Origin: Lantana camara | Taxonomy: Eukaryota > Streptophyta > Magnoliopsida > Lamiales > Verbenaceae | NCBI GenBank assembly: GCA_037501455.1 | Contig: CM074858.1 | Location: 97,994,001-98,058,000 of the forward strand | DNA length: 64,000 bases | Direction: 5' to 3' | Shown here: piece after piece, positions 10,901 through 62,629 of the stretch | How positions within the stretch are numbered: position 1 is the stretch's first letter | Layout: each line of letters begins with the position of its first letter | Made by a program: the position numbers and the translations under genes | Notes under the pieces: generated by a model | What the model saw: the letters and a program-made list of their open reading frames with translations, nothing else | Told to the model about the DNA's origin: nothing | Databases searched by the model: none

Positions 10901-10949
10901 GAGAAGATGGCAGAAATGGATGGAGGTAAAGGGTTTGGGGGTAATGACC

Positions 10950-11463: not shown

Positions 11464-11469
11464 GAAACA

Positions 11470-27060: not shown

Positions 27061-27256
27061 CACTCTTTTCACATTAATTCACATAATTTTTGGGGGGCCT
27101 GCTAGAGGAGATTCACGTGCGTCAAGGTGTCAGTTCGTTCACAACTATAATCAAAATCCCACAGTGCAGAAATAAGTTTATGCTATCAAGAAAGGAGAGG
27201 CTCCGAGCTGTGAGGCCAATTAAGTTATAGGGTTTAGTGATAAGGATTTGGATCAT

Positions 27257-27820: not shown

Positions 27821-28099
27821 ACAAGAAAAGGAAGAAAAAGAAATGTCTGAGTGAACTTGGAGTGTCATTGCTCTAAAAACAAAAGGCGGGCCTCTCGGGA
27901 CCTATCGAAACATCTACCTCATATGATAGCAGCTCCTGCGATGATTCCCAAACAGAAAAAACTAACGAGCTTATATGGAAAAGCGTGCTCTCAAGGCTCC
28001 CAGGCCGGAGATACTCGTTGAACCTACTGAGGAATTATTAATTGTTGAACTAGAGCCTGGCAACAAGGACAAGACAATGTAAACAGGATCTGGGCTCAA

Positions 28100-28900
28100 C
28101 CGTCCCTTACATCTCCTGATGATAATTTTTATGGGAAAACAAGGATATATTTGAATGGAAAGCATCAGAACTCACAGGCACTGGTCTGAACTTAATCGCG
28201 CATAGGCTAAATGTCGACCCCGCCTTCAAACCTATTAACCAAAAGAAAAATAGGGGCCATCGATGCTTAGAAGATCAGGGTCAAAGAAGACGAAGTAACA
28301 AGCTCCACGATGCCAAGTACATCGAAGAAATCCTTTACCCTGAGTGGCTTTGGAATGTTGCCCTAGTTCCCAAGAGTGCCAACAAGTGGAGGATGTGTAA
28401 CAACTTTATCGATCTGAATAGGGCATACCCAAAGGATCCATATCTACTGCCCAGAATAGATCAACTTATTGATTCCAAAACTGGATGCGAGTTGATGAGT
28501 ATGATGGATGCCTTCGAGGACTGCTATTAAATCTTTATAGCCCCTGAAGATCGACCAAAGACATCCTTCATTATTCATATTGGGATTTGTTACTTTCTTG
28601 TCATGCCTTGTGGCATGAAGAAGGCAGGAGCTACATATCAAAGGCTCATTAACAAGATGTTTAAAATAGAAATTGGAAAGTCCATGGAGGTATATGAGGA
28701 TGATATGATAGTCAAAAGTTAGAAACAACACTCTCACTTAGAAGATCTCAAAAGGACCTTAGCATCCTGAGGTCATATGGAATGAAACTCAACCCATAAA
28801 AGTGCACGTTCAGTGTCTGAGAAGGTAAGTTCTTAGGACACCTGGTCAGCCAACAAGGGATTGAGGCGAACCTGAAAAAGATTGAGGCTACCATGGACAT
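28100..28900 (+). pseudogene. Tat reverse transcriptase remnant (plus-strand copy)
   Basis: Blocks NKWRMCNNFIDLNRAYPKDPY, CELMSMMDAFEDCY, KTSFIIHIGICYFLVMPCGM and the catalytic box reading YEDD (about 28691-28702, normally YVDD) are recognisable. Stops and frameshifts are frequent (for example TAA at about 28527). It corresponds to residues about 1090-1260 of the intact Tat polyprotein. Confidence 0.85.
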
Positions 28901-28979
28901 TCTCTCCCTAAAGAATCTTCGAGAAGTTCAAGTGCTGGTAGGGATGATAATCTCCCTAAATAGATTCATCTCTCGATCC

Positions 28980-29516
28980 GACGATAGGAACTTACCCTTC
29001 TTCAAGGTCTTTTGAGATGGAAAGAACTTTGCATGGAAAGATGAATACGAGAAAACCCTACAGGATATGAAGGTTTATCTTTTGAGCGCTTCCTGATTAG
29101 CCAACCAACCATAAAAGAAAGGCTTTATGCGGTGAGCATACAATTGGTGACTATTAGGGACAAGAAGGATTTGCCTATCTATTAACTCAGCAAACCCTCC
29201 AAGGAGCTGAAAAGAAATATTTGGAAATTGAGAAGTTCGCCTTGGCTCCGATCAATGCCTCACGAAAGCTGAGGCCCTACTTTCAAGCCCATTCAATAAC
29301 AGTACTCACGAATCAGCCCTTAAAGTAAGTTTTGACAAAGTCGGATGCCTCAGGGAGCCTGATTAAATGAGAAATGAAATTGGGTCCATTTAAGATTTTG
29401 TTCGAGCTAATACATGCCTACGTGATCGTAGATTTATTGGTCGAGTTGTTTAATCTTGACGCACTAATAGAGAAATCCCAAGACTTGTGGGTCCTTCATA
29501 TAAATGGATGCTAGAC
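28980..29516 (+). pseudogene. Tat RNase H remnant (plus-strand copy), cut by insertion
   Basis: It contains the FFKVF, KKYLEIEKFAL and RKLRPYFQAHSITVLTNQPLK blocks of the gypsy RNase H, then the start of the second RNase H (WVLHINGC). There the 3.25-kb insertion interrupts. Coding continues at 32773. Confidence 0.82.
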
Positions 29517-30710
29517 TATTGGAATAGTGCCCTAGAAGGCTAATTCGACATAATCCATTTTGGTACTTTCTTTATATCACAGATAATCTTTAAATAATAG
29601 ATGTATGATATTGATCATAGGCAAACACTTTATATGAAATTGTGTGTTTTGTGTGTTTCCTATTACGTGCGCATGTATTAGAACTCCCCTCATCCATCAG
29701 GTCGTTAGGGACTTTTTGGTTAGGTAAATGACACATGAAACAAGCCCAAACTCAAGTTGGAGTAGAAACTACTCCAAGTTGATGAGCCTAATGAACTGTG
29801 GGAGTGTCAATTAGGCTCAATCGAGGCTTACTTGTGGGATTGTGTCCTTACGAAGGATCACCCAATTTCATGAGGTGTAAAGTGCATAAGCTGATGCATA
29901 CATAATACATGAGGCTCGCTAAGAGAACGAGTACACTGAGTTGTCCCTCGTGACAAGACTCCTAAATAGGAAAGGAAGTTTCCACTTCTAGAAGAGAAAA
30001 CTTCCAGATTAAGAAACATCTCACATGTCAATGGAGTGAGTAATTAATCCTTTAACTTGAGATTCTATTGATGTCTCGTGTGAGCAAACTAAGTAATTTT
30101 AGATATAGGTCTAAAAGGGGTAGCTCGAGACAACTGAAGTATAACTTATGTCGGGGTTACAAAAGTGGCACATGGAGGCATGTGAGAATCAATAAAGGAC
30201 CTACACTTGTTTAAGGCAGAAAATGTCGTATTGTATAAGTCATTCACATACCATCCCAAAACCTTCGGCGGAGGTAGTGGATCAAGACATGAAGAAAAAT
30301 GTTTGTTGGATAAGATCAAATGGATATGAAACGAACTTAGCTCTAAGATTAAGATTAATATGGCTCTCATTATTCCCATGCCCTATGCCTTAATCGAGAG
30401 ATAAAATAGTAGGAGGATTACATCTCATGGATGTCACTGACAGAAAGGTTATTTCGATTTAACTCGTTTTTCGGGTAGGGGTTACACACCTGTTGCTAGA
30501 CTATGTTCCTGATATCTGTGAGTTAATTAACTAATTAGGCTCACTGCTAACTAAATAATTAACCTACAGGGTCACACACAAATGCCAAATTCAAAGAGTA
30601 TTGTTGGAAAGATCAAATAATTGATCGAAACGAGACCACACATGTAAAGTACACATGTGGCACGGGAGCATTTATTTGGGCGCATGGAAATGAGAAATTG
30701 GACCATGTAT

Positions 30711-32772: not shown

Positions 32773-33440
32773 TAGACCTCCTAAGGGGGAGGAGTAGGGA
32801 TAATACTCCTAAGAGACCCAGAAGGGATTAAATTAGACTATACGATCAAACTAGACTTCCAGGTCACCAACAAGCCAGATAGAAGGGTCTTATTACGAGG
32901 CTTGAGAAACCACCATGATTCAATATTTGAATTAAACGCAAGAAGCCATATCTAAGTTCAAAGTTTCATGTTAAACTAAGTTCCCGAGCAAAAAATGAAC
33001 AAGATGATATGCTCTCTAAATTTGCTTCAGCCTTGGGTGGATCAGGGGATAAACCCATTAATTTCTTTAAAACTAAGGAACCCCTCATAATAGTCAGGAT
33101 TCCAGCGAAAGAAGTGAAAACTATTGATCCTGCCGAGCTATCTTAGCTCGATCATTTTGTGAGATTCTGTAAGGATGGAACAACCCCAATGGTCAAACTG
33201 GTAGCTAGGAAAAGCAAAAACAGAGCTCTAAGGTTCGCTCTTGATTGCAAGGGCCGCCTCTTCAAACGATCATTTCAAGAACCCCCCCATGAGATGATTG
33301 AGGCCTTCCCAAGATAAGGAAGTACTACAATACATTCATAGTGGGAGTTTCAAAAACCACTCTATTGGACGCTCATTAGCCAAGAAAGTTATGAGGAGCA
33401 GATTCTATTGGACCAATTTGCTTAAAGATGTCGTCAGTTT
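32773..33440 (+). pseudogene. Tat second RNase H and integrase N-terminus remnant (plus-strand copy)
   Basis: It resumes with GGGVG, LDYTIKLDFQVTN, then SKFASALGG and FRDG-like blocks. LFKRSFQ and a broken integrase zinc region (SGSFKNHSIGRSLAKKVMRSRFYW) follow. Homology to the intact Tat pol fades around 33430-33450. The catalytic core of integrase is absent. Confidence 0.8.
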
Positions 33441-33769
33441 ATCTAGGTTCCACAATAATATTCCTCAATAACCTGTAACCATCTGCATCGTCTTGTCTTT
33501 TTTACGGGGATCTAACTTTATATTTAAGAATTCTTTTATGGGTTTAATGCGCGTCTTGATTCGCAAAGTTTTGAGAGCATATTTTTCTCCCTATCTACTT
33601 CTCTGATCGGGAATCATCCTCGAGGATTTCCTCAGACAAGGTCATTTTAAAAGGACCCAAAGGTCTTGTCTTTTGTTTTCGAGCGATGACGCTCCAGGTT
33701 CTTTGGAACCTTTCATTTTTTTTTTTTTTTATTTAGTTTCGCTCTCTTCCTGTATGGGTCGTCTTCATC

Positions 33770-34252
33770 CTAGTTGGGGAAATTCGTTGTTTTTTTTGTC
33801 GAGCCCTGAAGAGCCCTGTGAGCCATAGGTTTCCATAAAGATAGCATATAGCACTCCAAGACTTCTTTGATGTTGCAAAGTACTTTTCCCATGCCCATGG
33901 GAGTAGGGAACTTTATCTTCTGATAATAGGTGGAGATGATAGCTTTGAAATCCACCAAGGTCGTACACCCTACGATGATGTTATTTGGGATCTCTATCTC
34001 CACCACAACATAGGTCTCCATGAGTGTTTTCCTTTGAGGGGCTCATCGCATGAACGTGGCTAGTTTTACCTGCCCTCGAGGGACCACCTCGGATGCTCCA
34101 AAGCCTATGAGGGTTATTTTTAGAGGTTCAAGGGGTATGTTAGCAGCATTTATTTTAACAAATGTAGAGTACAAGAGAACATTCACTGAACTACCACTGT
34201 TCACAAGAACCCTCTTTACAACGTGGTTATGCACATTAAGGCTAACCACCAT
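33770..34252 (-). pseudogene. Tat protease remnant (minus-strand copy)
   Basis: Two frames read MVVSLNVHNHVVKRVLVNSGSSVNVL and VVEIEIPNNIIVGCTTLVDFKAIISTYYQKIKFPTP, matching the intact protease. The active-site Asp is Asn (V-N-S-G). A frameshift lies at about 34030. Confidence 0.85.
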
Positions 34253-34259
34253 GGGGCAG

Positions 34260-36540
34260 TCAGAGGTTTCACCGACCCCATGGGGTGTTACAATATGCTC
34301 GAGGTCCTTATCACTAAAGCCTATGGCTTCATTTTCTTTCTTGTTAGAGGCTTCACCTTCTTTGATGGCATAGACCGAACCCTGAATGAAGGGCTGCTAG
34401 TCATAGCTTTGAACAAACCGATGTGAAGAGGCTTTAGAATTTCCATCGGTAGGCTCTCCTGAAATCATGTTGATCATATCAAAGGGGGCATTATTGAGAA
34501 CTGGGTCTTTCAGTTTCCCAGCATCCTTATCATCTTGGTGCCACCCTCGAGGACTCTTGGATTTGGAGCGACTCCGACTCCCTCCTCGGCCATGCTCATT
34601 GCAGCCTTCATCATAATATTCGAGGGTTTTGATGAACTCTTTCAAGTGACTCCCTGCAATGAGCCTTTGGATCTCGTTCTCTAGCTGGCCGCACTAATTA
34701 GTATCGTTCTCTTTTTTTTTTTTTTTTTTTTTTGTGGAAAGCACAGTACTTCCCAGAACGTTGTTGAGCCTCAGTTTCTCTTAGCTTGAAAGGGCTTTTG
34801 AACAACTTTTTGTCCTCCAGAGAGTAAACTTCAGAAATGGGTCAATTGAGGGAGATACGCTTTCCCTTGAATTTTCAACCATTGACTGGGCCTAGTGGTA
34901 CTTGCTGCTTTTCCTATTTCGGCTGCACCATTACCAATTGAAAAATAGATTCTAGTTAGTGAAGATCCTTTTCGATGGACTTGACCGCCAGTTTTGCAAT
35001 GTTTATCACTTTTTGGGTGGTTTTGATGTTTTGGGGCTTCCATCCTATACATACCCTCGAGCCCAAAGAATGGCTTGACAATCCTCCTGATCTCAACAAG
35101 TGATTTAAGCCTCTCATTCACAATGGTCTCTGCAAACTTCTTGCTGACAATTTGCTCGTGATTAAGGCTTTGAATAGTACGTGGACCAAAAAATCCATTG
35201 AGGGTTGCTCGACCTGAAGGACCTCTCTGTTAAAGCGGCTGAAGAAGTCTCTAAGGAATTCATTTTCACCTTGGATCAGACTATGCAAAGGAGTGGCCAG
35301 CTATACCAGGGGTCTTTAAGGAGTTGAAGTGATTAGCAAAAGCTTTCATATGGTTCCCATACCCTCTAATGGATCGAGGGGGCTGTCTTTTGTACCAGTC
35401 TTAGGCAACTCCTACCAAAGAAGTGACAAAGACTTTGGTCCAGTAATGGCTCGAGTGCTCATACAGGTACATCAAGTGTTGGAAGTGATCTAGATGCTCC
35501 TTGGGGTCGATGGTATCATTATAATGGTTGATGGACGTAGGGATCTTTTCTCTTCCAGCCTGAGCCACCAACACTTCATTTACGAGGGATGAGTTCCTTA
35601 TCCAGGGCTGGTAATAACCCTCAACATCATGATCCTCTTAGTCCTCATCGTCCCTCATTCTTCGAAGAGCTCTATCACGCTCTCGTAGGCGGTGGGCATC
35701 TCTGGCATGAGGTCTGACGTCCCTTTCTTGGGGAACTTGAAGCCTGGCTTAAGAGAGCTATCCCACGATCTCTTGTATGCCTTCAAGTTGGTTCTGAACC
35801 ACGGCTAGCAAGTTAGGGTTGTTCACATCTTAAGTGGGCTTCCACCTCATGCACCCTCTCAACAACCTTTCTCTTACCCCCCGTTCAGGTTTCCCTTGGG
35901 CGTCCTTTACAGGGATCTCCCTTCTGAGCGCGAGTGGAGGAGGTTGGGCTGTAAGGTGGCTTGGGCAACTATGAGGGGATATACCTGCCATCCCCTCATT
36001 TGAAGGGTATACTAACGGCTAAGCCCCACTAAATTGAATCTAGCCATGTAATGTCCCTGGGTATTCTGTGCAGCTTGAACTTTGCAATAGGTGTAGAATG
36101 TTGCCAGCTAGAGAGAAGTTAACTTTGGGTTCTACCCTGCCAATCTCTTTTGGGATTGTGATGGGGAGCTGCATTTGACCAGCATGGTAGGGAGGAACAA
36201 AGGACATGACCCTAGCTGTAGAAAAAATGGGTATACATTAGGCATATAACTTGGAGGTGGAACTAACATTCCTTGTTGTCCTCCATTGGTAGCTATAGCG
36301 AAAATAACATTGATTTGGGGGATAGTGGACCCTGATCCACCAGCTCCACCTCCGACCAAGGGGTCTTGTGGCATATTTGTCCCCTTTCCATTTGGATCTT
36401 GAGGGTTGGGATCTTTAGGAGGATCCTAATGATTTCCCTCACGCCCAATGATAACATTCTCCATATCCTTTTGGGTCGGATCATCCCCCTTGCCATGCAC
36501 GTTAGACCTAGTAGACATGACCATGGTGGAATTTATGTTT
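34260..36540 (-). pseudogene. Tat gag remnant (minus-strand copy)
   Basis: Recognisable pieces are MKEFIKTLEYYDEGCNEHGR with an Arg/Ser-rich tail (34397-34645), the knuckle region near 34660-34760, EIRRIVKPFFGLEGMYRMEA (about 35060-35110) and the YEHSSHYW-like region near 35440-35460. A Pro-rich N-terminus lies at 36132-36374. Poly-T at about 34710-34732 interrupts the knuckle. Many stops. Confidence 0.8.
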
Positions 36541-41338: not shown

Positions 41339-41887
41339 TAAAAACACAACAAACAAAGGCTGAAAGGCTGCACAGCCTCTCTTTTAAAAGTCACTAGACC
41401 TTGTAGTCTAACATCACAATAACTGAAATCAACATAACTCAAAATAAAGCACTGAATGTGTTCGATCAAGCCTCCATATTTTATTAAATAATATAGGACA
41501 AATTACATCTAATTATCTCAAAATTAGATCTAATTATAAATTAATTCTTCAAATTTTATTTATTATCATATGATTTTTATTTTTTTTTATTTCAGTTAGT
41601 AATCCCCCAAATTTAATCATTTATTAAGGCAGCATTAAATTTTTTTTATAATTTTCATAAAATAATATCTCAACATTTTTGTATTATTGGAAATAACCCT
41701 ATGAACTATTTTGTTATATTGTTTTATGTCAAATGTTACGGGCTCATTTTATTAATATTTGTAGATTTGAAGGATTATTATGAATATCACATATTATCTC
41801 TCTTTTTTAAGAAAAAAAATTATATTAAAGATTAATATTTATATTTTATGTACATAATTAAAAAATTTATGCTTGTTGTGTATAATG

Positions 41888-42708
41888 TGATGGGTCCGGG
41901 AATGGATGGTCCGAATCCGATCACTTTACGATTTGTATTTTGTGGAGGAAACCACCGGAGCTTAGCCGGAAAAGAGGAAGTGAGTTCAACCTGTTGGGAC
42001 AAGCACAAGAAAGTCAGAAGGCCAAGCTGGGGGAACTGGGGGTGATACCCAGTTTGGCTCTCCGACGCTCAAATCAGTTCAGTGTATGAAGAAAATGTAA
42101 GTTCAGTCACAGTTGCAGTGATGAAGAAAGCTTAAAGAATGCTTACAGTGTAGAAGATGACTTGGGTTATTTATAGTTGAGGGTCAAGGGCCCTTTGGTC
42201 ATTTGCCTCAAGTGGTCCTGGCCGAATGTTGCCCTAACACGTGGCGCTGTGAGAGAGAAACCTAGGAGGAATCTTCTGCAAAAGCGGCCCAAAAGTTAGT
42301 GCTAGCAACAGTGGCAGGTGCGCGGGCATGTACGTTGTGTCAGAGAGCCATGTGGGTGGTTGGTAACGAGGGCTTGAGAGCGCGCTCGTGACAACCTTGA
42401 GTCTTGGAGGCCAAGATATCCACTGAGGGGAATGTTGGCTCCAATTCAAGTGACGAGCCAAAGGAGAGGCCACTCTGAGGGAGTGTGACGCTCGAAGAGG
42501 GCTCCCTTGGCACGTAGGCGTACCCATCGTTTGGTGTGTAGGACGCTCGTTGGAGTGATAGCGCTCGTTGGGCTTAACTCCTGAAGAAGATCTGCGCTCG
42601 TTGGGTTCAGCGCTCGTGAACAGATGGCGCAGCCTTGGGGAGACAGATGTCATCATCTCGGTGATGCCACGTGTCTTAATGTGGGACGATCGTATTTTGG
42701 CCCCATCA
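41888..42708 (-). repeat. Tat-1 3' LTR (821 bp)
   Basis: The plus-strand text begins TGATGGGTCCGGG and ends GGCCCCATCA, with TSD TAATG on its outer side. It is nearly identical to 53882-54702. A 199-codon frame on the minus strand (42234-42833) is the LTR read through. Its mirror exists in the other LTR, and I do not call it a gene. Confidence 0.95.
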
Positions 42709-42819: not shown

Positions 42820-43057
42820 TCTGAATGCGCCATTAATGCGGTCTTTTCAATTGACCGTTCGTATCACTTCCGCATTAAATGCTGGTACTATTCTGAAGCC
42901 CTTGAAACGTCAGAGCATTAAATGCGGGTGCGCGTGGGGCGCGTGAGCATTGGGAAGCATGTGCCGGTTCCATAAAGTGGGCGGTTTCCTAGGCGGGAAA
43001 TGATTGCCATTTTGAATTTATTGCCTAAAACGGCACCAACTTCCATCCCTATAAATA
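42820..43057 (+). promoter_or_regulatory. Promoter of the antisense gene: GCATTAAATGC boxes, E2F-type site, TATA box
   Basis: Elements in order are GCATTAAATGC at 42872-42882 and 42915-42925 (and a related CATTAATGC near 42831), GGCGGGAAA at 42992-43000, and TATAAATA at 43050-43057. GGCGGGAAA is the complement of TTTCCCGCC, which fits the E2F/DP consensus TTTSSCGC. Tat-2 keeps the same set with similar spacing (62636-62667, 62737-62745, 62794-62801) although surrounding sequence differs. This lies inside the element but outside the LTR, so the antisense gene appears to have its own promoter. Function is inferred from motif and position. Confidence 0.72.
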
Positions 43058-43307
43058 CGGGATTCTGAGATCTCCACACTCTTTACGCATTCAGAACTTT
43101 CAAGCACCCTTTGCAAAAAAAGAAATCTCTCGCATCTTCAACCTCTTCTCCAGTTTTCTCCCAGAACTTTCAAGGTAAATTTCCATTGAAACTTTTTAAC
43201 TTTACTAACCGTAGATTCGGACTCTAGGATTTTGTAATCCCTCAGATTTTTGCCTTTCCGAACCCTAATCTTTTTCCAAGAAAACTCCCAAAAACTCCTT
43301 TTCTGCC

Positions 43308-45276
43308 ATGGCCGACCAACACGTTGAAGAGTTTGCCCATGAAATCCAAGAGATGGCCACGGAGAGTTCTTCTTCCCCTGATTCCCTCAGAGACGAGGAG
43401 TTGGGGGCGGCAATGATGGCTGTGGAGGATAGAAATCCAGGAGGAACGGATCCTCTCTTTGAGGAGATGGATCTGGTGATGGAGGCAGAAAGACAAGGAG
43501 TCACCCTCCCCATAACTCAAAGTGCCACACATCCCCACCGCCACAGAGTGACCGTGGCCGTTGCAAATCCGCTTCCAGTGGCGGAAGCCGTAACCGGGCC
43601 TTCAGAAAGGGCCCGTGTTGCAAATCCGCTTCCAGTGGCGGAAGCCGTGACTGGGCCTTCGGAAAGGGCCCGTGACAAGGGCAAGAGTAAGAAAACCCAG
43701 AAATCCAAAGGGCCCAACGAGGGGGAGGGCTCAGGTTATCAGGCTACCGAGCGCACGCCAGATGAGACTCCCAGCACCGTCACTGTGGGAGATGTAAAGA
43801 CAATGATGGCCCCCATCTACTGGGACGAGCGGTATACATGGAGAATTCCTCAAAACCACGAGCGTGCAAATAATCCGCCTCCTGGGGAAATGGCAGTGTA
43901 CGTGGACACCGTGCGCTCAGGAGGCCTGAGGTTCCCCATTTCAGTCTCAATGGCCCATTTGCTGAATGACTTGGGCTTGTGTCCATCCCAAATAGTGCCC
44001 AACGGCTTGGCCCTCCTGACCTGTTTCGTAATTCTGATGAGGACCATGGGTTACGAGCCCTATTTGCGGAACTTCAATGCCCTTTTCCAAGTGGTCAGCT
44101 CCTCTCGCTCTTCTCCTGAGGCGGGTTTTTATTACGTCCAAGCGAAGGCCCACATGAAGCTGATCAACTCGCCCTCGAGCACTTATGGCATTGATTGGAA
44201 AGAAAAATTCATCTTTGTCAAGGCTCCAGCAGGAGAGGGCTTTGGGGTGATCACGGAATGGGGCTCGTACTCAAAGAGCCGTTTGCCACCCTCACTCCCC
44301 CGAGACTGGGCTAAAAACCTGGCAACAACCCTAAGGGACGAGGGTCACCTTATACAAGCAAAGGACTGGATAGACGATGCGGAACTCATGTTCTTGTGTG
44401 GTCTTACCAACGACCCTCATTTCCTTGAGAACCCTCCGGCTCGTGACATAGAGAGAGACGGTTAGATTCTTAGGGCACTAACCTTAGATAGGAATGAATA
44501 CTAACTGCTTTTCTTGTACTTGTAATTTGCACTTAACAATTCTTGTCCAAGGATTTATAACCTTCGTACTTTCATTTCTGCAGGAGCCGCTATCTTAGAA
44601 ATGGCCGGTGGAATCAGACAAGCGGCTCGTTTCGCCAACGCTCAGAGGAATCAAGCCACCCAGGGGAACCAACAGCGCGAGCCCCAACGCCCCCGTAACC
44701 GTAATGATAGAGGGGACGCTCGTGGGGGGGCCAGTTCAAGCGCCAACCCTGAGGTGCAACCCCCTCGTGGCCGAGGGGAACGTAGATTGGTCCCCAGGGA
44801 GACCAGGCGATCGGAGAGAGCAGGAGATGTTCAACCTCTCCTTCCTGCAGAACCAACGAGGCCAAACACCACTTTGGCGATTACTGAGGCTCCTCCGAGC
44901 GCGATCGCAAATAGACCTTCCCGCAAGAGGAAGAGAATGCCTGACTCCGCCGCGATCAAAGGAAAGGGCAAACAAGTGGCTGAGGGCCCCCGAGGCGAGG
45001 GGGACACTTCCTCTTCAGAGGAAGAACACATGTGGGAGTTCCCTCGCCGAGGGGACAGAGACTTTACTGGCGCCCCCGACGGCGGGCCGGTTTTGCTGAG
45101 GCCGGGCTCGGTCGCCCTTAGTCTTACTCAGGATTTGTTCAGCCGGGCTCAATTCTCAGCAGACCACAGGCATCTCTACAATGAGTCTGTAGAGAAGGTG
45201 ACGCTCGACGCAGCCCACGCCCTGATTTCCGTAAGTCTCCATTCCTCGCATTCTTCTTTTCTTTTCCGTAAATCAC

Positions 45277-45310
<34 letters not shown>

Positions 45311-46235
45311 GCTAACACTTTTCCTCTCGTTTACGCAGCAAGTTCTCCCCCGGCTCCAGAATGTGCAAATGCGAGCCTCCACCTACGCCGAGCGCAAAGC
45401 CAAATACAAGAAGGTGGCCCGCTCGAATGATCCGACCCATATCCAAGGGGAGCTGGATGCTGAGATAGCTAAGTACGAAACCCTCAAGGGTTTGTACAAC
45501 AAAAATGAAGAGGAGCTGTCAAAGCTGAAGGAGGACTTTGTGGCTGTGGACGGCGCTCGGATCCGTTTGGGCAACGAGCTGGCCCAAGCTAACGAGCGGG
45601 TCAAGAAGGCTGAGGCAGAGAGGGAGAGCTTGAGAGCAAGGGCTCTGGAGGCCGAGCGCAAGTTTAATGATACTGTTAGCGAGTGGCCTCGGAGCTTGGA
45701 GCGTGCGACCAAGGAGGCGTTGATCAAGTTCTGTCATTCCAAAGCTTTCAACTTCGCGGCCTCGTTACACTGCTTGGACGAGGCTCAAAATGCTTTCAAC
45801 CTGGCAGTGGATCAGGGCATCCACAAAGGACTGACAGATCCAGCAATGAAGGGTGCTGAGGGTACGGGGCTCATGTTTAATGAGCGCTGTGAGGAGGCAG
45901 ATGAGGATCCAAACGACCCCGCAGACAGCATAGCGGAAATGGAGTACGACTTCCTGGTGAAACTGATCCAGGATGAGTACACCGATGCCCACAGGGAAGG
46001 GGGTGTGGGTCCATCTGATGCTCATGAAGACGAGCCCCAAGCGCCGATCATAGAGGATGCCCCAGTTCAAGTCGCTGAAAACGCCAACGCTCCAGATGCC
46101 AATGCGCCTGCCCCAGATGCCAATGTCCCCAACGATCTGCAAGCCCATCCGCAAGAGCCTGAGGGTCCAGTTCATGGCCCAATTCAAGGCCCTGTTCTGG
46201 TGATTGTTGATGAGGACATCGCCCCAGCTGCTTAA
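43308..46235 (+). CDS. Antisense accessory protein of Tat-1, three exons (43308-44460, 44584-45230, 45339-46235), 898 residues
   Basis: The start ATG (43308) has CCATGGCC context. Exon joins keep frame: 44460/44584 makes a Gly codon and 45230/45339 falls between codons; both introns are GT-AG. Residues about 190-330 (GGLRFPI, HLLNDLGLCPSQIVPNGLAL, SSPEAGFYYVQAK) resemble the plant 'putative gypsy type transposon' domain (Transposase_28, PF04195). A nuclear-localisation-like RKRKR lies near residue 499. A coiled coil (about 630-720) has ELDAEIAKYETLK and LKEDFVAVDGARIR heptads. The tail is acidic and Pro/Ala-rich with NAPDANAPAPDANVP repeats. Role unknown; antisense ORFs of this type are known in Tat elements. 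Residues 85-122 are a 19-residue tandem duplication. The homologous frame in Tat-2 supports real coding. Confidence 0.85.
43560..43673 (+). repeat. 57-bp in-frame tandem duplication in exon 1
   Basis: Two adjacent copies (43560-43616 and 43617-43673) encode VANPLPVAEAVTGPSERAR twice. They differ at 3 of 57 bases, all leaving the residues unchanged. The Tat-2 homologue lacks the duplication. Confidence 0.92.
44461..44583 (+). other. Intron 1 of the antisense gene (123 bp)
   Basis: Donor GTTAGA follows GAGACG, and acceptor TTTCTGCAG precedes GAGCCGC. The first base of the intron frame would give an in-frame TAG, so splicing is needed to join exons 1 and 2. A T-rich tract precedes the acceptor, and TACTAAC (44501-44507) is a candidate branch site. 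Confidence 0.82.
45231..45338 (+). other. Intron 2 of the antisense gene (108 bp)
   Basis: Donor TCC|GTAAGT is a strong match. Acceptor TTTACGCAG precedes CAAGTTC. The interior has a (TA)n run and about 20 T. The length is a multiple of three without a stop, so unspliced RNA would still translate with a hydrophobic insert. The composition and splice signals argue for an intron. Confidence 0.85.
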
Positions 46236-46348
46236 AATCCTTCCTTTATCAATTTTCCTGTATTTCTCAATTTTTCTGCTATTTCTTGTAAAAGAATTTC
46301 ATGGGCCTTTGAGCCCCTTTTGTCTTGTAATATGCTTCCTTTTTAATG

Positions 46349-46354
46349 AATAAA
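46349..46354 (+). terminator. Polyadenylation signal of the antisense gene
   Basis: AATAAA lies 114 bp after the TAA stop, within a T-rich 3' region (TTTTTAATGAATAAAATG) and followed by TTTGTTGTT-type sequence. A typical plant near-upstream element. Confidence 0.65.
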
Positions 46355-46448: not shown

Positions 46449-46965
46449 TGAAAATTTGCCTAAGTCTTGAGCGATCGTGGGGGTCTTATTGTGAGATTGC
46501 CCCCCACTCAAGACTTGCACAAATTTTGTTTTTGCTCTTGAAATTGAAAAGTTGTCTAAGTCTTGAGCGCTCGTGAGGGTCTTACTGTGAGATTGCCCCT
46601 ACGCTCAAGACTTGTATAAATTTTTCCTTTTGAAAATTTGTCTAAGTCTTGAGCGCTCGTGAGGGTCTTACTGTGAGATTGCCCCTACGCTCAAGACTTG
46701 TATAAATTTTTCCTTTTGAAAATTTGTCTAAGTCTTGAGCGCTCGTGAGGGTCTTACTGTGAGATTGCCCCTACGCTCAAGACTTGTATAAATTTTTCCT
46801 TTTGAAAATTTGTCTAAGTCTTGAGCGCTCGTGAGGGTCTTACTGTGAGATTGCCCCTACGCTCAAGACTTGTATAAATTTTTCCTTTTGAAAATTTGTC
46901 TAAGTCTTGAGCGATCGTGAGGGTTTTACTGTGAGATTGCCCCTACGCTCAAGACTTGTATAATT
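46449..46965. repeat. Six tandem 86-bp units, each a potential hairpin
   Basis: TCTTGAGCG starts at 46465, 46561, 46647, 46733, 46819 and 46905 (first spacing 96 bp, then exactly 86). Each unit has inverted arms AAGTCTTGAGCG and CGCTCAAGACTT (12 bp, perfect in the four central units) around a loop of about 32 bases containing GTGAGATTGCCCC. The array lies between the converging 3' ends of the antisense gene and pol. No coding content. Very high similarity between units indicates recent amplification. Confidence 0.93.
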
Positions 46966-47029
46966 CCTTTTTGATTCTGAGACCATCGTTCGAGCGCCTT
47001 GGCTCCTGTCGTTTTCTTGGTTCTGCAGA

Positions 47030-47310
47030 AAATCCCATTTCCGAGCGCAAGGTGTTTTAAGAAACGACCAAGGCCCACTAGGACTTTTTCTGTGGTAGAT
47101 CCCGTTTTCGAGCGCAAGGCGTTTTAAGAAACAACCAAGGCCTACTAGGATGCGTTCTTGTAGGAGATCCCGTTTTCGAGCGCAAGGCGTTGTAAGAAAC
47201 AGCCAAGGCCTACTAGGATGCGTTCTTGTAGGAGATCCCGTTTTCGAGCGCAAGGCGTTGTAAGAAACAGCCAAGGCCTACTAGGATGCGTTCTTGTAGG
47301 AGATCCCGTT
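47030..47310. repeat. Four tandem 67/68-bp units
   Basis: CGAGCGCAAGG occurs at 47042, 47109, 47177 and 47245 within units containing GATCCCGTTTTC and GCCAAGGCCTACTAGG. Like the hairpin array it lies in the spacer downstream of both convergent genes. Minus-strand frames across it (such as 46900-47274) are repeat artefacts. Confidence 0.92.
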
Positions 47311-47598
47311 TCAACTTGCCTAATTGGTTGTGAGCGTAACCAGTCTATCCTTATGAGGGCGTCCCCCCATGCGGAGTAGAGTGCTGGCCAGCGTAACCCA
47401 TAAGAGATAACAGCATCCATATTGGAATGGGTTGCCAACCACGCTCGAGAAGACGAGGGACGTGGGACTTATCCATTCAAGCAACCAAAGAAACCGGAAT
47501 ATTACAGAAATTAAAAAGATTATGTTACCTTTCACTTTGATTTGAAGTACATAGAACCCGTCAAAGTGGGTTGTTACATCAGAGTTTGCAAAGAGCTT

Positions 47599-50500
47599 TT
47601 AAACATAAAACCGCCGGAGGTTACATGCGTTCCAAGGGCGAGGCAAGCGCTCGCCTTGAAGTGTCTCCAGGGTGTAAGTGTTGTTAGCTCTGAGTTGTAT
47701 GACCTTGAATGGGCCTTCCCAATTGGGGTCCAACTTGCCCACGTGTTTGGATACTTCCACTTTCTTCAAAACCAAGTCTCCCAGCTGGAAAGTTCTTTCC
47801 TTCACCCGCTTGTTGTACTGTTGGGCTACAGAGGCTTTATAGTGGTGGATCTTAGCCCACGCTCGGTCTCTCCTTTCATCCAGCAAGTCCAACTCCAAGC
47901 TTCTGTTGCCATCGTTGAGCTGAGGTTCGAAATAGCCGACACGAGCGGATTCATTTACTATTTCCGCAGGTATCATTGCCTCTGATCCATAAACGAGCGC
48001 GTACGGGGTTTCTCCAGTGGCTGCTCGTGGGGTGGTGCGATAAGCCCAAAGCGCTCCTTGCAGCTCCTCAGCCCATTCACCTTTCTTGCTTTCAAGCATG
48101 GTTTTCAGATGTCGCAAAATGATCCTGTTGGTAACTTCTGCTTGTCCGTTAGATTGTGGATGTCCTACAGAGGTAAATCGCTGTTCTATCCCCAACTCAG
48201 AACACCACTCTCGTGTGTCAGCTGCTATGAACTGGGATCCATTGTCAGATATGAGCACCCTCGGTATTCCGTACCTGCAAATGATGTTCTTCCAAATAAA
48301 GTCCCTTACAACCTTGAAAGTGATTTTTGCAACGGCTTCAGCCTCGGCCCACTTGGTGAAGTAATCGACGGCTAAAATGACAAACTTCCTTTGTCCCGCA
48401 GCCATGGGCATGGGGCCCACAATGTCTATTCCCCACTGGTCAAACGGCCAAGAGACATCTATTGGGATCATTTGTGCGGCTGGCAATTGAGGGAGATTTG
48501 AATGAAATTGGCATTTGGGGCACTTCCTTGAAAATTCAATGGCATCCTGGAGAACCGTAGGCCAATAAAACCCACTTCTCAGAATCTTCTTCGCCAAGAT
48601 ACGCCCTCCGGAATGATTCCCGCAACTTCCATTGTGTATGAGCTCGAGCGTTTCCTTCGCTTGGGAGGGCCTTAGGCATCTCATTGGGGGTCCTTGAAAT
48701 GATTTTTTGAACAATCTCCCCTCGGGATCCAGAGCGAAACGAGGGGCCTTATTCCTGACTTTCCTGGCTTCCACCTTGTCAGTTGGAGTGATTCCATCCC
48801 TCAGGAAAATGATGATGTCGTCAAGCCAACAGGGCTCGTTTGGATCAATCATGGCGACCATCTCAGTGGCGACCCTTTCCTTGATCAAAGGTTCCTCAGT
48901 TCTGAGGAACGTAACAGAGCGCTCGGAAGTGCCTTCTAAAGCTGAAGCAAACTTGGACAGAGCGTCCGCACGCTCGTTTTCTCCTCGCGGCACTTGAAGT
49001 AGGTGAAACTCCTTGAACTTCCCAATGATTTCTCTGGCTTTCTTTAGGTACTGTACCATGGTGGTTTCTCGAGCCTCATATGCTCCTTCAATCTGGTTCG
49101 CTATTAACTGTGAATCCACGTAAGCAGTGATTCTGGAGGCTCCATTCTGAAAAGCTATGTTCAACCCTTGCACGAGGGCTTCATATTCCGCTTCATTATT
49201 AGTGACTTGGAAGTCCAGCTTGATCGCAAAGTCCAGTTCAATCCCATCGGGGCTTCTGAGGGCCACTCCTATTCCTCCCCCTTGAGAGGTTGAGGAACCA
49301 TCTGTGTGCAGTACCCATAACCCCTCATTCTCCGCGATGGTGGGCTCGAAACCAAAACGCTCAACCAACAAATCCGCCACAACTTGAGCCTGTATCGCGG
49401 TCCTGGGTTCGAAGCATAAGTCAAACTGACTCAATTCGATGGCCCACTTGATTAATCTGCCAGATACGTCCGGCTTGGATAACACTTGCTTCAAGGGTTG
49501 GTCGGTGAGAACTGTTATTGAGTGCGCTTGAAAGTAAGGCCTTAGCCTTCTTGAGGCGTTAATAAGAGCGAACGCAAATTTCTCAATCTCCAAATATTTC
49601 TTTTCAGCTCCTTGCAAGGTTTTGCTCAGGTAATATACGGGTAGGTGTTTCCGTTCCCGCACAGCGATCAGAACGGCGCTTGTGGCTTCTGGAGAAACGG
49701 AAAGATACATGAATAATCTCTCACCTTCGACGGGCTTAGTCAGCAGTGGTGCGCTCGATAAGTAAGCTTTCATATCCTGCAGCGCCTTTTCACATTCTTC
49801 GGTCCAAGCAAAGTTACGTGCGTTCCTCAAAATTTTGAAGAAGGGAAGGTTTCTGTCCGCCGAGCGCGAAATAAACCTGTTCAATGAGATGATTTTGCCT
49901 ACCAGGACCTGCACCTCCCGCAAATTTCGAGGGGAGGGGATCTCCAGGATGGCCTTGATCTTCTCCGGATTGGCCTCAATTCCTCTCTGACTGACCATAT
50001 ATCCCAAGAACTTTCCCCCTTGTACTCCAAAGGTGCATTTCGAGGGGTTCAACTTCATTCCATATTGTCGCAGGATAGAAAAGGCGCGCTTGAGATCTTC
50101 CAAGTGGGAGTCCTGGCGCTCGCTTTTCACAATCATATCGTCCACATAGACCTCCATGGACCTCCCAATTTCACTTTCAAACATCTTGTTGACGAGCCGC
50201 TGATATGTAGCTCCGGCGTTCTTAAGTCCAAAGGGCATGACTAAGAAGCAATACACCCCTAGATGGACAACGAACGAGGTTTTGGGGCGATCTTCTGGAG
50301 CCATAAAGATCTGGTAATATCCCTGGAAAGCATCCATCATGCTCATGAGCTCGCAGCCAGCGGCCGAATCCACCAATTGATCAATCCGGGGCAACGGGTA
50401 TGGATCTTTAGGGCAGGCCTTGTTGAGATCCGTGAAATCGTTGCACATGCGCCATTTATTTGCGCTCTTGGGCACCAAGACGACATTACACAACCATTCC

Positions 50501-53500
50501 GGGTACAAGATGGGCTCGATATACTGAGCCTCCAAGAGCTTATTGACTTCCTCTTCAATGACTTTCTTTCGAAAGCCATGTACATCCCGTTTTTTCTGCT
50601 TGATAGGCTTGAAAGATGGATCCACATTAAGTCTATGGACAATGACGCTCGGGTCAATTCCTGTGAGATCAGAGGCTTTCCACGCGAATACATCTTTGTT
50701 CTCCCTTAGAAAATCAATCATCATGATCTGAGAGGGCCCTGAGAGGTTTGAGCCGATCTGTGTAGTCTTATCTTTGTTTCCAGGTTCCAGCTCAATGGTA
50801 AGGAACTTTTCCGAGGGTTCGATCCTTACCTCAGGGCGAGGAAGTTCGAGCGCCCTCTTCTTTCCTGTCAAACGATCGCCAGATGCTGGTTCACTCTCTT
50901 TCGGCTCGTCTTCTCCTGAGGACGATTCACCAACGACCCCTGGGGGGACATTTTCGAGGGGATTCTCCCCGTTGTCTCCCCTCTTCTTCTTATTCTTCTT
51001 CTTGTTCAATTTCGCCCGTTTCCGTGCTGGGCTGTCCTCGTCTAGATTGGGGAAATCCACTGCCTTCTTGGTGGATCCGACTTGGAAGGTTTTCTCCGCT
51101 TTAGGCTTTCTGAGGGACAGCATGTAACATTCCCAAGCCTCTCGTACATTGCAGAGCACTTCTCCGATGCCCTCGGAAGTAGGAAACTTAATCTTCTGGT
51201 GGTATGTGGAGATGATGGCTTTGAAATCAACGAGGGCAGGGCGCCCAATTATGATGTTATATGGAATGTCTATCTCCACCACCGCGTACGTCACCAGGAG
51301 TGTTTTCCGTTGAGGGGCTCGGCCGAATGATGTAGCCAGGCGTATTTGTCCTCGTGGGACAACTTCTGAGCCTCCAAAGCCAATGAGGGCTGTTTTAAGA
51401 GGCTCGAGCGGGAGATCAACCTTCATTTTTAAGAATGTAGAGTAAGGCAAAACATTAACGGAGCTTCCACTATCTACCAATACTCTTTTTACAACATGGT
51501 TATGAACATCTAAGCTAACCACCATGGGGCAATCTGAAGTTACACCCTCCCCATGGGGCGTTACAATATGTTCTAGATCCCTATCATCAAAGCCTATTAC
51601 ATCATTTTCTCTTGATTTCGGAGCGCTTGATCTCTGGATAGCGTAGATAGGCTTGGGCATTGCTGGGCGTTGGTTGTAGCTCCGAACGTGCCTTCGTCGG
51701 GAGGCGTTTGAATCCCCTCCAGATGAACCTCCCGCAATCATATTTATGACTGCGAAGGGCTCGTTTTCTTGCTCAGGGGCTTTGCCTTTGTTGCCTCGGC
51801 GACCGCTGCTTTCAGGGGGTCCCCTGCCCCTTGGGCTCTTTGACCGGGAAGGACTCCTTCTTTTCCTTCCGGAGCGCTCGTTGCATTGTTCATCGTAGCG
51901 TTCGAGCACCCGGACAAATTCTTTCAGATGGCCCCCTGCAACGAGCCTTTGGATTTCAGCCTCCAACTGTCGGCACTCATCCGTGTCGTGCCCTCTTTGC
52001 TTGTGAAAGGCGCAGTATTTGTTCGAGCGCCTGAGTGAGTCCGTTTCTCTCATTTTGATGGGTCTTTTGAAGAGCTTTTTATCGGAGAGATTGTAGACTT
52101 CTGAATTTGGCCGGGTGAGCGGAATGCGCTCGAATCGACGAGGGGGAGGTGGCGACCTTTTGCGCTCTTGAGGGCGCTCTTTCTTTACTGCCACATCCCG
52201 CCCCCGCTCGTGATGAGGTCGCTCGTTCCTGGCCGGGCTGTGATGTCGGGGACCATTCGTCCCATACATATCTTCGAGCGCGAAAAATGGCTCGGCTATT
52301 TCTCTCAGGCCCATGAGGGTTCCAGGCCTTCTCTCCACGATGGCATCAGCAAATTTTTTGCTCACATACTGCTTGTGATCCACAGCCTGGAAGAGCACTG
52401 GGATCAAGAAATCCATCGAGGGCCTTTCCACCTGCCAGATCTCCTTATTGAAGCGGGCGAAGAACGAGCGCAGTGATTCGCTCTTGCCCTGCACCACGTT
52501 GTAAAGGGCTGTGGGTGCGGTGACTGGTGCCTTCAAAGAGTTGAAGTGGTTGAGGAAGGCATCGGCCAGTTCTTCATATGAGTGGATCGAGCGCGGTGGC
52601 AGGCGCTTATACCACTCTTGAGCCATCCCTACCAAGGAAGTGACAAACACTTTCGCCCAGTAATGGCTGGAATGCTCGTAAAGGTGCATGAGATGCACAA
52701 AATGATCCAGGTGCTCCGCTGGATCGGTTGTCCCGTCGTATCTGTTGATGGATGTGGGGACTTTGGCCATGCCGGCTTGGGCCATCAAAACTTCTTCGAC
52801 GAGGGGTGAACCTCTCGCCAGCGGGTGATATTCGTACGTGCCGAAGTTTTCCTCCGGCTCCTTGCGACGGGGGACCCTCGGTGGAGGATCCTTGGTGTGG
52901 GTGCTCCTGGCGTCAACCCGTTCATCCCGAGTATGGGAGATCTGAGTTGAGCGCCCTCGTGAGAGCTGTCCCACCATATCCTTGAGGCCCTGCAGCTGGT
53001 CTTGCACAGCCGCGAGGACATCAGGATTTACTTCCACTTGCTTGTCCTTGTGGGCTCGTGAGCCCCTCCTGGAGACATGAGAGTCTCCTTCGTTTTTGTT
53101 CACTCGCTCCGTGGGCTCCTTGTTCCTGCCCACGGAGGCACGCTCGTTGCCCTCTTGCTGGGGCACTTCTCTGGCTGGTGGTGGTGGTGGTTGTGCCCTC
53201 AAGACAGCCTGAGCTTCTCTGAGGGGAAAGTTCTGTTGTCCGCCCAAAGGGGCGGCAATCTGAGTGGCCTGCCCAGAGGGGAAATACATGGAATGGAATC
53301 TTTCCCATGCCCCCTGAGCCGCCTGAACCTCACACTGGGCATAGAGAGCCCGTAGCTGTTGAGTGGTCAACGGAGGTAGCTCCACTCCTTCAATTTCCCT
53401 GGGGACCACCACTGGGAGTTGGAGCTGTCCGGCATGGTATGGCTGGACCGGCGGCGTCATCATAGCCGGAGTAAGAGTGTAGCCAGGCGGAGGCATCATG

Positions 53501-53790
53501 TAACCTTGTATTCCAAGATTCATCTGGGGATGGACCCAGGAATTCTGTGCAAGCGGCGGTGGAGCTGAGAAAGAAACTCCTCCCGCGGTGGTGGGAATGG
53601 GCATCACCGGCGGTGCAGGCGGCGGCGCAGAAGATTCAGCTGGCGGAGTTACTCCTGCGGCGGGAGGTGTTCCACCAGCGGCGACAGAAAGAGGTGGTGC
53701 TCCACCAGTAGCGGTGGAGGGAAGAACGATGTTTGCGTCTTGGGAGGTGTTTTCTCCTCCTCCCACAGCTCCAGATCTCGTTGCAACCAT
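47599..53790 (-). CDS. gag-pol: Tat-1 Gag-Pol polyprotein, intact, 2063 residues
   Basis: This single open frame starts at ATG 53790, about 70 bp after the primer-binding site. A Pro/Ala-rich N-terminus is followed by the Gag capsid (about 340-480, EWYKRLPPRSI), then a knuckle CAFHKQRGHDTDEC from residue 593 (C-x2-H variant usual in Tat). Protease has LVDSGSS (Asp 773). RT carries YVDD at 1215-1218. A gypsy RNase H (about 1310-1440) is followed by a second RNase H (HTDGSS, Asp 1497; NNEAEYEAL; VDSQL). Integrase has CPKC (1757-1760) and the triad Asp 1789, Asp 1849, Glu 1885 with the D-D-35-E spacing. The C-terminus has WEGPFKV. All catalytic residues are present, so the copy may be active. 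Its 3' end faces the antisense gene. Confidence 0.96.
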   Translation of the reverse strand: MVATRSGAVGGGENTSQDANIVLPSTATGGAPPLSVAAGGTPPAAGVTPPAESSAPPPAPPVMPIPTTAGGVSFSAPPPLAQNSWVHPQMNLGIQGYMMPPPGYTLTPAMMTPPVQPYHAGQLQLPVVVPREIEGVELPPLTTQQLRALYAQCEVQAAQGAWERFHSMYFPSGQATQIAAPLGGQQNFPLREAQAVLRAQPPPPPAREVPQQEGNERASVGRNKEPTERVNKNEGDSHVSRRGSRAHKDKQVEVNPDVLAAVQDQLQGLKDMVGQLSRGRSTQISHTRDERVDARSTHTKDPPPRVPRRKEPEENFGTYEYHPLARGSPLVEEVLMAQAGMAKVPTSINRYDGTTDPAEHLDHFVHLMHLYEHSSHYWAKVFVTSLVGMAQEWYKRLPPRSIHSYEELADAFLNHFNSLKAPVTAPTALYNVVQGKSESLRSFFARFNKEIWQVERPSMDFLIPVLFQAVDHKQYVSKKFADAIVERRPGTLMGLREIAEPFFALEDMYGTNGPRHHSPARNERPHHERGRDVAVKKERPQERKRSPPPPRRFERIPLTRPNSEVYNLSDKKLFKRPIKMRETDSLRRSNKYCAFHKQRGHDTDECRQLEAEIQRLVAGGHLKEFVRVLERYDEQCNERSGRKRRSPSRSKSPRGRGPPESSGRRGNKGKAPEQENEPFAVINMIAGGSSGGDSNASRRRHVRSYNQRPAMPKPIYAIQRSSAPKSRENDVIGFDDRDLEHIVTPHGEGVTSDCPMVVSLDVHNHVVKRVLVDSGSSVNVLPYSTFLKMKVDLPLEPLKTALIGFGGSEVVPRGQIRLATSFGRAPQRKTLLVTYAVVEIDIPYNIIIGRPALVDFKAIISTYHQKIKFPTSEGIGEVLCNVREAWECYMLSLRKPKAEKTFQVGSTKKAVDFPNLDEDSPARKRAKLNKKKNKKKRGDNGENPLENVPPGVVGESSSGEDEPKESEPASGDRLTGKKRALELPRPEVRIEPSEKFLTIELEPGNKDKTTQIGSNLSGPSQIMMIDFLRENKDVFAWKASDLTGIDPSVIVHRLNVDPSFKPIKQKKRDVHGFRKKVIEEEVNKLLEAQYIEPILYPEWLCNVVLVPKSANKWRMCNDFTDLNKACPKDPYPLPRIDQLVDSAAGCELMSMMDAFQGYYQIFMAPEDRPKTSFVVHLGVYCFLVMPFGLKNAGATYQRLVNKMFESEIGRSMEVYVDDMIVKSERQDSHLEDLKRAFSILRQYGMKLNPSKCTFGVQGGKFLGYMVSQRGIEANPEKIKAILEIPSPRNLREVQVLVGKIISLNRFISRSADRNLPFFKILRNARNFAWTEECEKALQDMKAYLSSAPLLTKPVEGERLFMYLSVSPEATSAVLIAVRERKHLPVYYLSKTLQGAEKKYLEIEKFAFALINASRRLRPYFQAHSITVLTDQPLKQVLSKPDVSGRLIKWAIELSQFDLCFEPRTAIQAQVVADLLVERFGFEPTIAENEGLWVLHTDGSSTSQGGGIGVALRSPDGIELDFAIKLDFQVTNNEAEYEALVQGLNIAFQNGASRITAYVDSQLIANQIEGAYEARETTMVQYLKKAREIIGKFKEFHLLQVPRGENERADALSKFASALEGTSERSVTFLRTEEPLIKERVATEMVAMIDPNEPCWLDDIIIFLRDGITPTDKVEARKVRNKAPRFALDPEGRLFKKSFQGPPMRCLRPSQAKETLELIHNGSCGNHSGGRILAKKILRSGFYWPTVLQDAIEFSRKCPKCQFHSNLPQLPAAQMIPIDVSWPFDQWGIDIVGPMPMAAGQRKFVILAVDYFTKWAEAEAVAKITFKVVRDFIWKNIICRYGIPRVLISDNGSQFIAADTREWCSELGIEQRFTSVGHPQSNGQAEVTNRIILRHLKTMLESKKGEWAEELQGALWAYRTTPRAATGETPYALVYGSEAMIPAEIVNESARVGYFEPQLNDGNRSLELDLLDERRDRAWAKIHHYKASVAQQYNKRVKERTFQLGDLVLKKVEVSKHVGKLDPNWEGPFKVIQLRANNTYTLETLQGERLPRPWNACNLRRFYV

Positions 53791-53881: not shown

Positions 53882-54702
53882 TGATGGGTCCGGGAATGGA
53901 TGGTCCGAATCCGATCACTTTACGATTTGTATTTTGTGGAGGAAACCACCGGAGCTTAGTCGAAAAAGAGGAAGTGAGTTCAACCTGTTGGGACAAGCAC
54001 AAGAAAGTCAGAAGGCCAAGCTGGGGGAACTGGGGGTGATACCCAGTTTGGCTCTCCGACGCTCAAATCAGTTCAGTGTATGAAGAAAATGTAAGTTCAG
54101 TCACAGTTGCAGTGATGAAGAAAGCTTAAAGAATGCTTACAGTGTAGAAGATGACTTGGGTTATTTATAGTTGAGGGTCAAGGGCCCTTTGGTCATTTGC
54201 CTCAAGTGGTCCTGGCCGAATGTTGCCCTAACACGTGGCGCTGTGAGAGAGAAACCTAGGAGGAATCTTCTGCAAAAGCGGCCCAAAAGTTAGTGCTAGC
54301 AACAGTGGCAGGTGCGCGGGCATGTACGTTGTGTCAGAGAGCCATGTGGGTGGTTGGTAACGAGGGCTTGAGAGCGCGCTCGTGACAACCTTGAGTCTTG
54401 GAGGCCAAGATATCCACTGAGGGGAATGTTGGCTCCAATTCAAGTGACGAGCCAAAGGAGAGGCCACTCTGAGGGAGTGTGACGCTCGAAGAGGGCTCCC
54501 TTGGCACGTAGGCGTACCCATCGTTTGGTGTGTAGGACGCTCGTTGGAGTGATAGCGCTCGTTGGGCTTAACTCCTGAAGAAGATCTGCGCTCGTTGGGT
54601 TCAGCGCTCGTGAACAGATGGCGCAGCCTTGGGGAGACAGATGTCATCATCTCGGTGATGCCACGTGTCTTAATGTGGGACGATCGTATTTTGGCCCCAT
54701 CA
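53882..54702 (-). repeat. Tat-1 5' LTR (821 bp)
   Basis: TGATGGG...CCCATCA ends in plus-strand text, with TSD TAATG at 54703-54707. It carries the element promoter. Confidence 0.95.
54161..54170 (-). promoter_or_regulatory. TATA box in Tat-1 5' LTR
   Basis: CTATAAATAA on the minus strand, conserved in the solo LTR (about 31399) and in the 3' LTR (42167-42176). It is preceded by CCAAAGGGCCCTTGACC. Likely start of genomic RNA about 30 bp further. Confidence 0.75.
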
Positions 54703-55247
54703 TAATGCATATTTTTATGTTTTGAGAAAAATATAATATATTTTTAATAATTTAATAATAAATAAATATTGCTAATAATTATATAAATTTTGAATTGATT
54801 AAATTATACATGTAATAATATTATAAGCCGAAATTTAAAATTTAAAGAAAAAAGTTGAAATCCACCTTCGAGTAATTTAGATTTTTATGATCTTACGTTA
54901 GAGCAAATCATATCTTAGACCACAAGATCAAATCATATCTTAGAAACTATATCATAAAAAGTAAAAATGGGCAAAGTGACTTATAATTAGGTGAAACTTC
55001 AGGATAATGGGATATAATTTCAGAAAGGGTAGGAACATCATCATTTTAACTTTTAAAATTAATATTTAATATAAAACATTAAGGGCAGTTTAGATTTTTA
55101 TCATTTTATGTCAGGGATTACAAGATCAGCAAATCAAACTTTAGAGACTGTATAGTAATAAATGGAAATAAAAAGATTAATTTGTAATTAGGTCTAATCT
55201 TGAGTAGGGATGTAATTTGCCTATAATATATTGACTCAATTATCTTT

Positions 55248-55490
55248 AATCAACTAATATAAAACTAAAATCTTTTTATATATCTTTTAGAATTACACAT
55301 GACCTCATCCCATATGTATTTAATTACCTATAATCAACTAATATAAAATTGACATCTCTGAATATATCTTTTAGAATTACACATGACCACATCCCATATG
55401 TATCTATTACCTATAATCAACTAATATAAAACTAAAATCTTTGTATATATCTTTTAGAATCACACATGACCTCATCCCATATGTATCTAG
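55248..55490. repeat. Three tandem units of about 84 bp
   Basis: AATCAACTAATATAAAA starts at 55248, 55332 and 55415. Each unit also contains TATATCTTTTAGAAT and CACATGACC-CATCCCATATG. AT-rich and non-coding. Confidence 0.9.
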
Positions 55491-62506: not shown

Positions 62507-62629
62507 TTCTGTAGTATCGCGTCGAGCGTACTGTAGAATTTATAAAGGAGGGATCCTGAATTTCAAATATCCGAGGGATGGGGCATTACCCTCGAGGAGA
62601 CTGCTGGCCTTCTGTAACGGACACAAACT

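Follow-up and report, generated by a model that had tools for sequence, protein, structure and literature searches.

A putative spliced antisense gene with an internal promoter in a Tat/Retand-type retrotransposon of Lantana camara

A Tat/Retand-type LTR retrotransposon of Lantana camara appears to carry a real accessory gene of three exons, with an internal TATA promoter, on the strand opposite to gag-pol. We put the probability of this reading at roughly 0.85. The element lies in a 64 000-nucleotide stretch of contig CM074858.1 that was analysed as a whole and is termed here the window; positions are those of the window unless a residue or another locus is named. Judging from its DNA, the antisense unit is almost certainly a spliced protein-coding gene with three exons. 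An earlier note, made from the letters of the window, had described such a unit, with a TATA box, an E2F-type site, a leader, a stop and an AATAAA, and each of these was found where the note had placed it.

The host element reads on the minus strand, with its 5′ LTR at 53882–54702 and its 3′ LTR at 41888–42708 (821 bp). The two LTRs differ at 2 of 821 sites, and a target site duplication (TSD), TAATG, flanks the element at 41883–41887 and 54703–54707. It is a young plant-type retrotransposon. The ORF list and a Pfam profile search show gag-pol as a single minus-strand ORF of 2063 aa at 47599–53790. Two tandem arrays (units of 86 nt and of 67–68 nt), located at 46458–47311 by a repeat scan, separate pol from the antisense gene. 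A second RNase H-type domain is a mark of the Tat lineage, and one is found here after the RT-RNase H (RT_RNaseH at residues 1359–1456, RVT_3 at 1496–1615; Pfam). The placement in the Tat lineage, implied by the name 'Tat-1' that the earlier note had coined, therefore seems sound. Retand-type marks are also present, namely a long region between pol and the 3′ LTR, an antisense PF04195 ORF and tandem arrays. By coordinates, the distance from the end of pol to the LTR is 4890 bp, which is inside the range of 2933–6566 printed for Retand (PMC11963269).

Three tandem AT-rich units of ~84 nt occur at 55236–55489, just outside the element. The window also contains fragments of further related gag-pol elements at 25425–29517 (plus strand) and 32776–36198 (mixed strands), and Copia-type element fragments (gag, Pol_BBD, integrase and RVT_2) at 9727–13463 (plus strand) and 772–1821 (minus strand).

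The antisense gene lies on the plus strand, between pol and the 3′ LTR. Its exons at 43308–44460, 44584–45230 and 45339–46235 join to 898 codons and a stop without any internal stop codon, from an ATG at 43308 to a TAA at 46233–46235, and thus predict a protein of 898 aa. The three exons are joined in frame by two GT-AG introns (44461–44583 and 45231–45338), just as had been proposed. Exon 1 encodes an acidic N-terminus and a PF04195 (TRP28) domain at residues 203–262; a Pfam search with the 898-residue model places this domain above the gathering cut-off (30.6 vs 26.2 bits), so that what the earlier note called PF04195-like can be taken as PF04195. Intron 1 is in phase 1, is 123 nt long and has an in-frame TAG at 44463. 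Exon 2 encodes an R/P-rich part and the predicted basic RKRKR patch, which is indeed at residue 498; its KRKR, within the string KRKRMPDS, is common to a sister family described below. Intron 2 is in phase 0, is 108 nt long in the window copy and has a CTAAC 27 nt ahead of its end. Exon 3 encodes a charged, probably coiled-coil region and an acidic/proline tail, and the 3′UTR (46236–46354) has the AATAAA at 46349. It should be pointed out that intron 2, whose 108 nt are a multiple of three, is open in frame in the window copy, where an ORF at 44601–46235 spans it. The window copy alone therefore cannot prove intron 2, but other copies can.

Two further features of the plus strand can be mentioned. 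The leader layout suggests a possible third intron, in the 5′UTR, tentatively at 43175–43245: GTAAAT is present in 30/30 genomic copies, a CTAAC is at 43205 and an AG at 43213, 43226 or 43244, and GTAAAG and CTAAC occur in the sister leader too. In exon 1 there is an in-frame 57-bp tandem duplication (43560–43673), the unit number of which varies among copies, as 57-nt indels. All three differences between the units are synonymous (P 0.025–0.029).

Copies of the gene were collected from the 1.27-Gb assembly, which has at least eleven large contigs, with a 700-nt query across intron 1 (44161–44860); the best 40 of 2752 first-look candidates gave 30 loci, i.e. the window copy and 29 others. Since the copies were picked by similarity over 44161–44860, low variation in or near intron 1 is to some extent a product of this choice; the query does not cover intron 2 or exon 3. 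Of the 30 copies, 25 have an open spliced frame. The frame that retains intron 2 is open in a single copy, the window's own, and the unspliced frame in none. One of the 25 open copies (L010) has TT in place of AG at the second acceptor; an open frame with all splice dinucleotides is thus found in 24 of 30, and five copies are broken. The ATG, the GT and AG of intron 1 with its TAG, and the GT of intron 2 are each kept in 30/30 copies, the AG of intron 2 in 29 and its CTAAC in 27. The stop is kept in all 30, as TAA in 20 and TGA in 10, and AATAAA in 26.

The distribution of indels follows the proposed exons. Within exons, 11 distinct indels are multiples of three and one is not (in exon 3 the ratio is 8/8), compared with two and nine, respectively, in intron 2, which ranges from 78 to 143 nt among copies. 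Outside the gene body the corresponding numbers are 2 and 10 in the leader, 1 and 11 in the 3′UTR and 0 and 5 upstream; intron 1 has no distinct indels among the 30 copies. Exon indels differ from those of leader, intron 2 and 3′UTR together with Fisher p = 2.6e-6, and from those of intron 2 alone with p = 6.4e-4. Shared variable sites fall at codon positions 1, 2 and 3 in the numbers 63, 46 and 240 in exons, 2, 4 and 3 in intron 1, and 8, 8 and 6 in intron 2 (chi-square p = 8e-44, to be read as a large effect and not as an exact value, as the sites are not independent).

Comparison of dN/dS among copies, a test that the earlier note had suggested, gives a result that is not neutral. With codons containing gaps or stops masked beforehand, omega is 0.20 by maximum likelihood and 0.173 by counting over all pairs; by counting it is 0.095 for exon 1 after residue 160, 0.257 for exon 2 and 0.170 for exon 3. 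A 1266-codon piece of pol, compared in its own 30 copies from the best 40 of 6968 first-look candidates, has an omega of 0.105 by counting, and constraint is thus stronger on pol than on the antisense gene. The two proposed introns do behave like introns across copies in their splice dinucleotides, indels and frames. They have GT/AG ends and are T-rich, and length and frame vary freely, in intron 2 within the family and in both introns between families. At the level of DNA, these comparisons demonstrate that selection preserves the frame of the predicted spliced product and that intron 2 evolves as non-coding sequence.

The putative promoter block is at 42914–43065 on the plus strand and is recognized from the copies and the sister family. 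It has an E2F-like GGCGGGAAA at 42992, where the window sequence shows the E2F-type site as GGCGGGAA, and a TATA sequence, TATAAATA, at 43050. TATAAATA is kept in 28/30 copies, and GGCGGGAAA likewise in 28. The block aligns between the window and sister families with a local score of 94, against a shuffle maximum of 26, and the E2F-like site and TATA are 58 nt apart in the window family and 57 nt apart in the sister. Among copies of the family, conservation of the E2F-like site does not exceed that of its flanks. In the upstream 1.5 kb of eight distant loci (L001–L008) there is no such E2F-like site and no matching TATA pair, in fetched stretches that may fall short.

The sister element begins at about 62.5 kb in the window (62530–64000), and its gene continues in locus L039, with pol on the other strand (ORF judged by eye). 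Joined at GT-AG sites, the sister gene encodes 886 aa that are 36% identical to the window protein over nearly the full length (E 1e-144). Its introns match those of the window gene in position, intron 1 being in phase 1 with 125 nt and intron 2 in phase 0 with 79 nt. Between the two families, introns and 3′UTR are alike no more than shuffles; the leader scores 30 vs 29 for shuffles, i.e. one point above.

A more distant clade was reached by a PF04195 search of the genome that scored the best 150 among 7705 first-look candidates, of which eight loci (L001–L008) were examined; identity is 27–36% in the matched part. The intron test did not include L002, the downstream part of which read unlike the others, or L007, which is nearer to the sister. 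All six loci tested fit a phase-1 intron behind the TRP28 exon, the splice sites having been set by eye. The side of exon 3 could be found in three of them (the pattern matched an unrelated place in L004 and L006, and L005 was without the exon 2 end), and a second intron in phase 0 fits, by eye, in 3/3 where both sides were located. The simplest reading is that both introns predate the splits from the sister family and from this clade. Locus L008 with its neighbour L070, the one distant locus tested for this, has pol on the opposite strand. In L070:1687–3391 (G000:C11) a gag-like match stands directly before an integrase match, with protease and RT skipped; this element looks internally deleted and is possibly non-autonomous.

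Other explanations have been considered for the antisense frames. The window copy could be read as having two separate, unspliced antisense ORFs, one of 385 aa with TRP28 and one of 544 aa downstream, with intron 2 translated, since both ORFs exist there and intron 2 is open. However, the intron-2-retaining frame is open in 1/30 copies, nine of the 11 indels in the 78–143 nt of intron 2 are frame-breaking, codon periodicity is lacking there, and the exon 2 frame in distant loci opens without a nearby methionine (by eye); two independent ORFs are therefore highly improbable. It may also be asked whether constraint on the opposite strand produced the frame as a side effect, with no gene involved, as overlapping strands can mimic ORFs. 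This is scarcely credible, because gag-pol stops at 47599 and does not reach the gene, the minus strand within 43308–46235 is without an ORF of at least 150 aa, and codon periodicity continues in the same register past either intron.

Antisense transcripts are able to supply silencing pathways or to repress retrotransposition (PMC7264820, PMC12786077), and the transcript might work as RNA, e.g. as dsRNA with the genomic RNA, the protein being incidental. Frame-keeping indels, the third-position excess and the low omega need a protein under selection, which makes an RNA with an incidental protein very unlikely; the data leave room for an RNA role in addition to the protein. Introns and a promoter amount to a gene-like architecture, and this raises the question of whether a cellular gene was captured recently by this family. 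The exon 1/intron 1 boundary has 1740 matches in the genome, though, and the same gene is in the sister family. The distant clade has the same first-intron phase, with pol on the opposite strand at the one locus tested, and no host gene was among the matches of three protein searches of limited sensitivity. Because diverged families share the gene, a recent capture has next to no probability, while an ancient capture of a cellular gene is compatible with these findings. The three-exon gene thus remains our preferred reading.

New retroelement copies are made from gag-pol-sense RNA. In this RNA the antisense introns are reversed and unspliceable, and hence are not lost. Patterns of the spliced junctions with up to 3 mismatches have 0 matches in the whole 1.27-Gb genome, a search that more diverged intron-less copies would escape, against 1740 matches to the unspliced boundary for intron 1 and 263 for intron 2. 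These numbers fit the idea of the earlier note that antisense orientation protects introns. Intron-less processed copies were considered as direct proof of splicing; as no spliced junction was matched in the genome, there is no processed copy to provide it. The accompanying claim, that RNA-templated elements normally lose introns of sense genes, holds as a rule that has exceptions in Ogre and EVADE (PMC12786077).

We consider it rather probable, from the sequences compared, that the phase-1-then-phase-0 introns are ancestral to Tat/Retand antisense TRP28 genes with their own promoter, and have been present since before the ~30%-identity clade split, being held because they are reversed in genomic RNA. 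The TRP28 and Smc-like ORFs annotated separately across flowering plants would then belong to a single gene as its exons, and the need for splicing would make the full-length protein dependent on the transcription of integrated copies in the nucleus.

What the protein does can be proposed only tentatively. The coiled-coil heptad score of residues 601–760 is reached by 17/500 shuffles, and the Pfam coiled-coil matches, with E 0.67 and 0.75, are below cut-off. Of the parts listed in the earlier note, the coiled coil is the most weakly supported. The AlphaFold model is poor (pLDDT 40.6), and Pfam gives no bZIP family match at E up to 1. Protein database searches returned remote matches, P0001 from Rubroshorea and P0002 from Sesamum, from the 7997 and 7995 candidates, respectively, with the most shared words, and none for residues 160–412. 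P0001 aligns over residues 184–486; its exon 2 part alone is non-significant (E 0.14 and 0.10), and P0001 is therefore not counted as evidence for the exon join. A scan of viral contigs found no relative.

TRP28 is predicted to bind DNA (PMC11963269). RNA polymerase II would transcribe the antisense strand of integrated copies, driven by the internal TATA promoter, with the E2F-like site perhaps favouring expression in dividing cells, and the host spliceosome would remove both introns from the transcript. The TRP28 domain, the conserved basic patch and the probable coiled coil hint at a protein that partners the element in the nucleus, in a regulatory or preintegration capacity, and associates with DNA or RNP, although such a role is at present somewhat doubtful.

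An abundant lineage of plant elements is marked by its antisense TRP28 ORFs, which were reported in 61/63 clusters of Retand (Vicient, 2025; PMC11963269). Retand elements resemble the window element in having an antisense PF04195 ORF between pol and the 3′ LTR and tandem arrays, and the LTR, internal and POL-3′LTR sizes of the window element are within the Retand ranges (PMC11963269). The Retand survey, which used ORF Finder, lists its antisense ORFs separately, 104 in 63 clusters and some of them Smc-like, whereas those of the window would be exons of one gene; a term search of its text gave no instance of the word 'intron'. The use of ORF Finder, the ORF number and the Smc-like domains together lead to the proposal that many of these ORFs are exons of one gene, and the window gene suggests the same for TRP28 and Smc-like ORFs annotated apart. 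If so, the proteins have been studied in pieces so far, it is the full-length product that ought to be expressed and tested, and the function of antisense TRP28 genes becomes directly testable. A 2020 review calls for a search for antisense and spliced transcripts (PMC7264820). Introns in plant antisense TRP28 genes are not reported among the literature matches listed, with a prior mention possible in papers outside this scope (Gomez-Orte, 2013; Steinbauerova, 2011; Kejnovsky, 2006). An antisense TRP28 gene that has a promoter of its own is on record, and what is new, as far as searched, is the conserved spliced architecture.

The window gene offers a clear genomic example of orientation letting an RNA-copied element keep introns. 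The introns of Ogre and EVADE lie in the gag-pol-sense transcript, unlike those of the window element, which are antisense to the genomic RNA. Both are plant LTR retrotransposons with functional introns, as is presumably the window element, and a 2025 review regards them as notable intron-bearing exceptions (PMC12786077). That antisense ORFs are known for Tat elements such as Grande, as the earlier note stated, is in print (PMC7264820, PMC11963269). Grande gene23 of maize is an antisense accessory gene that is transcribed from its own upstream promoter and has a nuclear protein product; it shares with the window gene its accessory nature, its antisense orientation and the possession of a promoter, putative in the window, and the account available makes no statement on introns (PMC7264820). 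In HTLV-1, the antisense gene HBZ is spliced, and its transcripts start in the 3′ LTR, which holds exon 1 (PMC2386809). With its putative internal promoter, two coding-region introns and no bZIP match in Pfam, the window gene is unlike HBZ and not a member of its kind, and the two are alike in layout, as antisense genes of a retroelement that are spliced in HTLV-1 and predicted to be so in the window.
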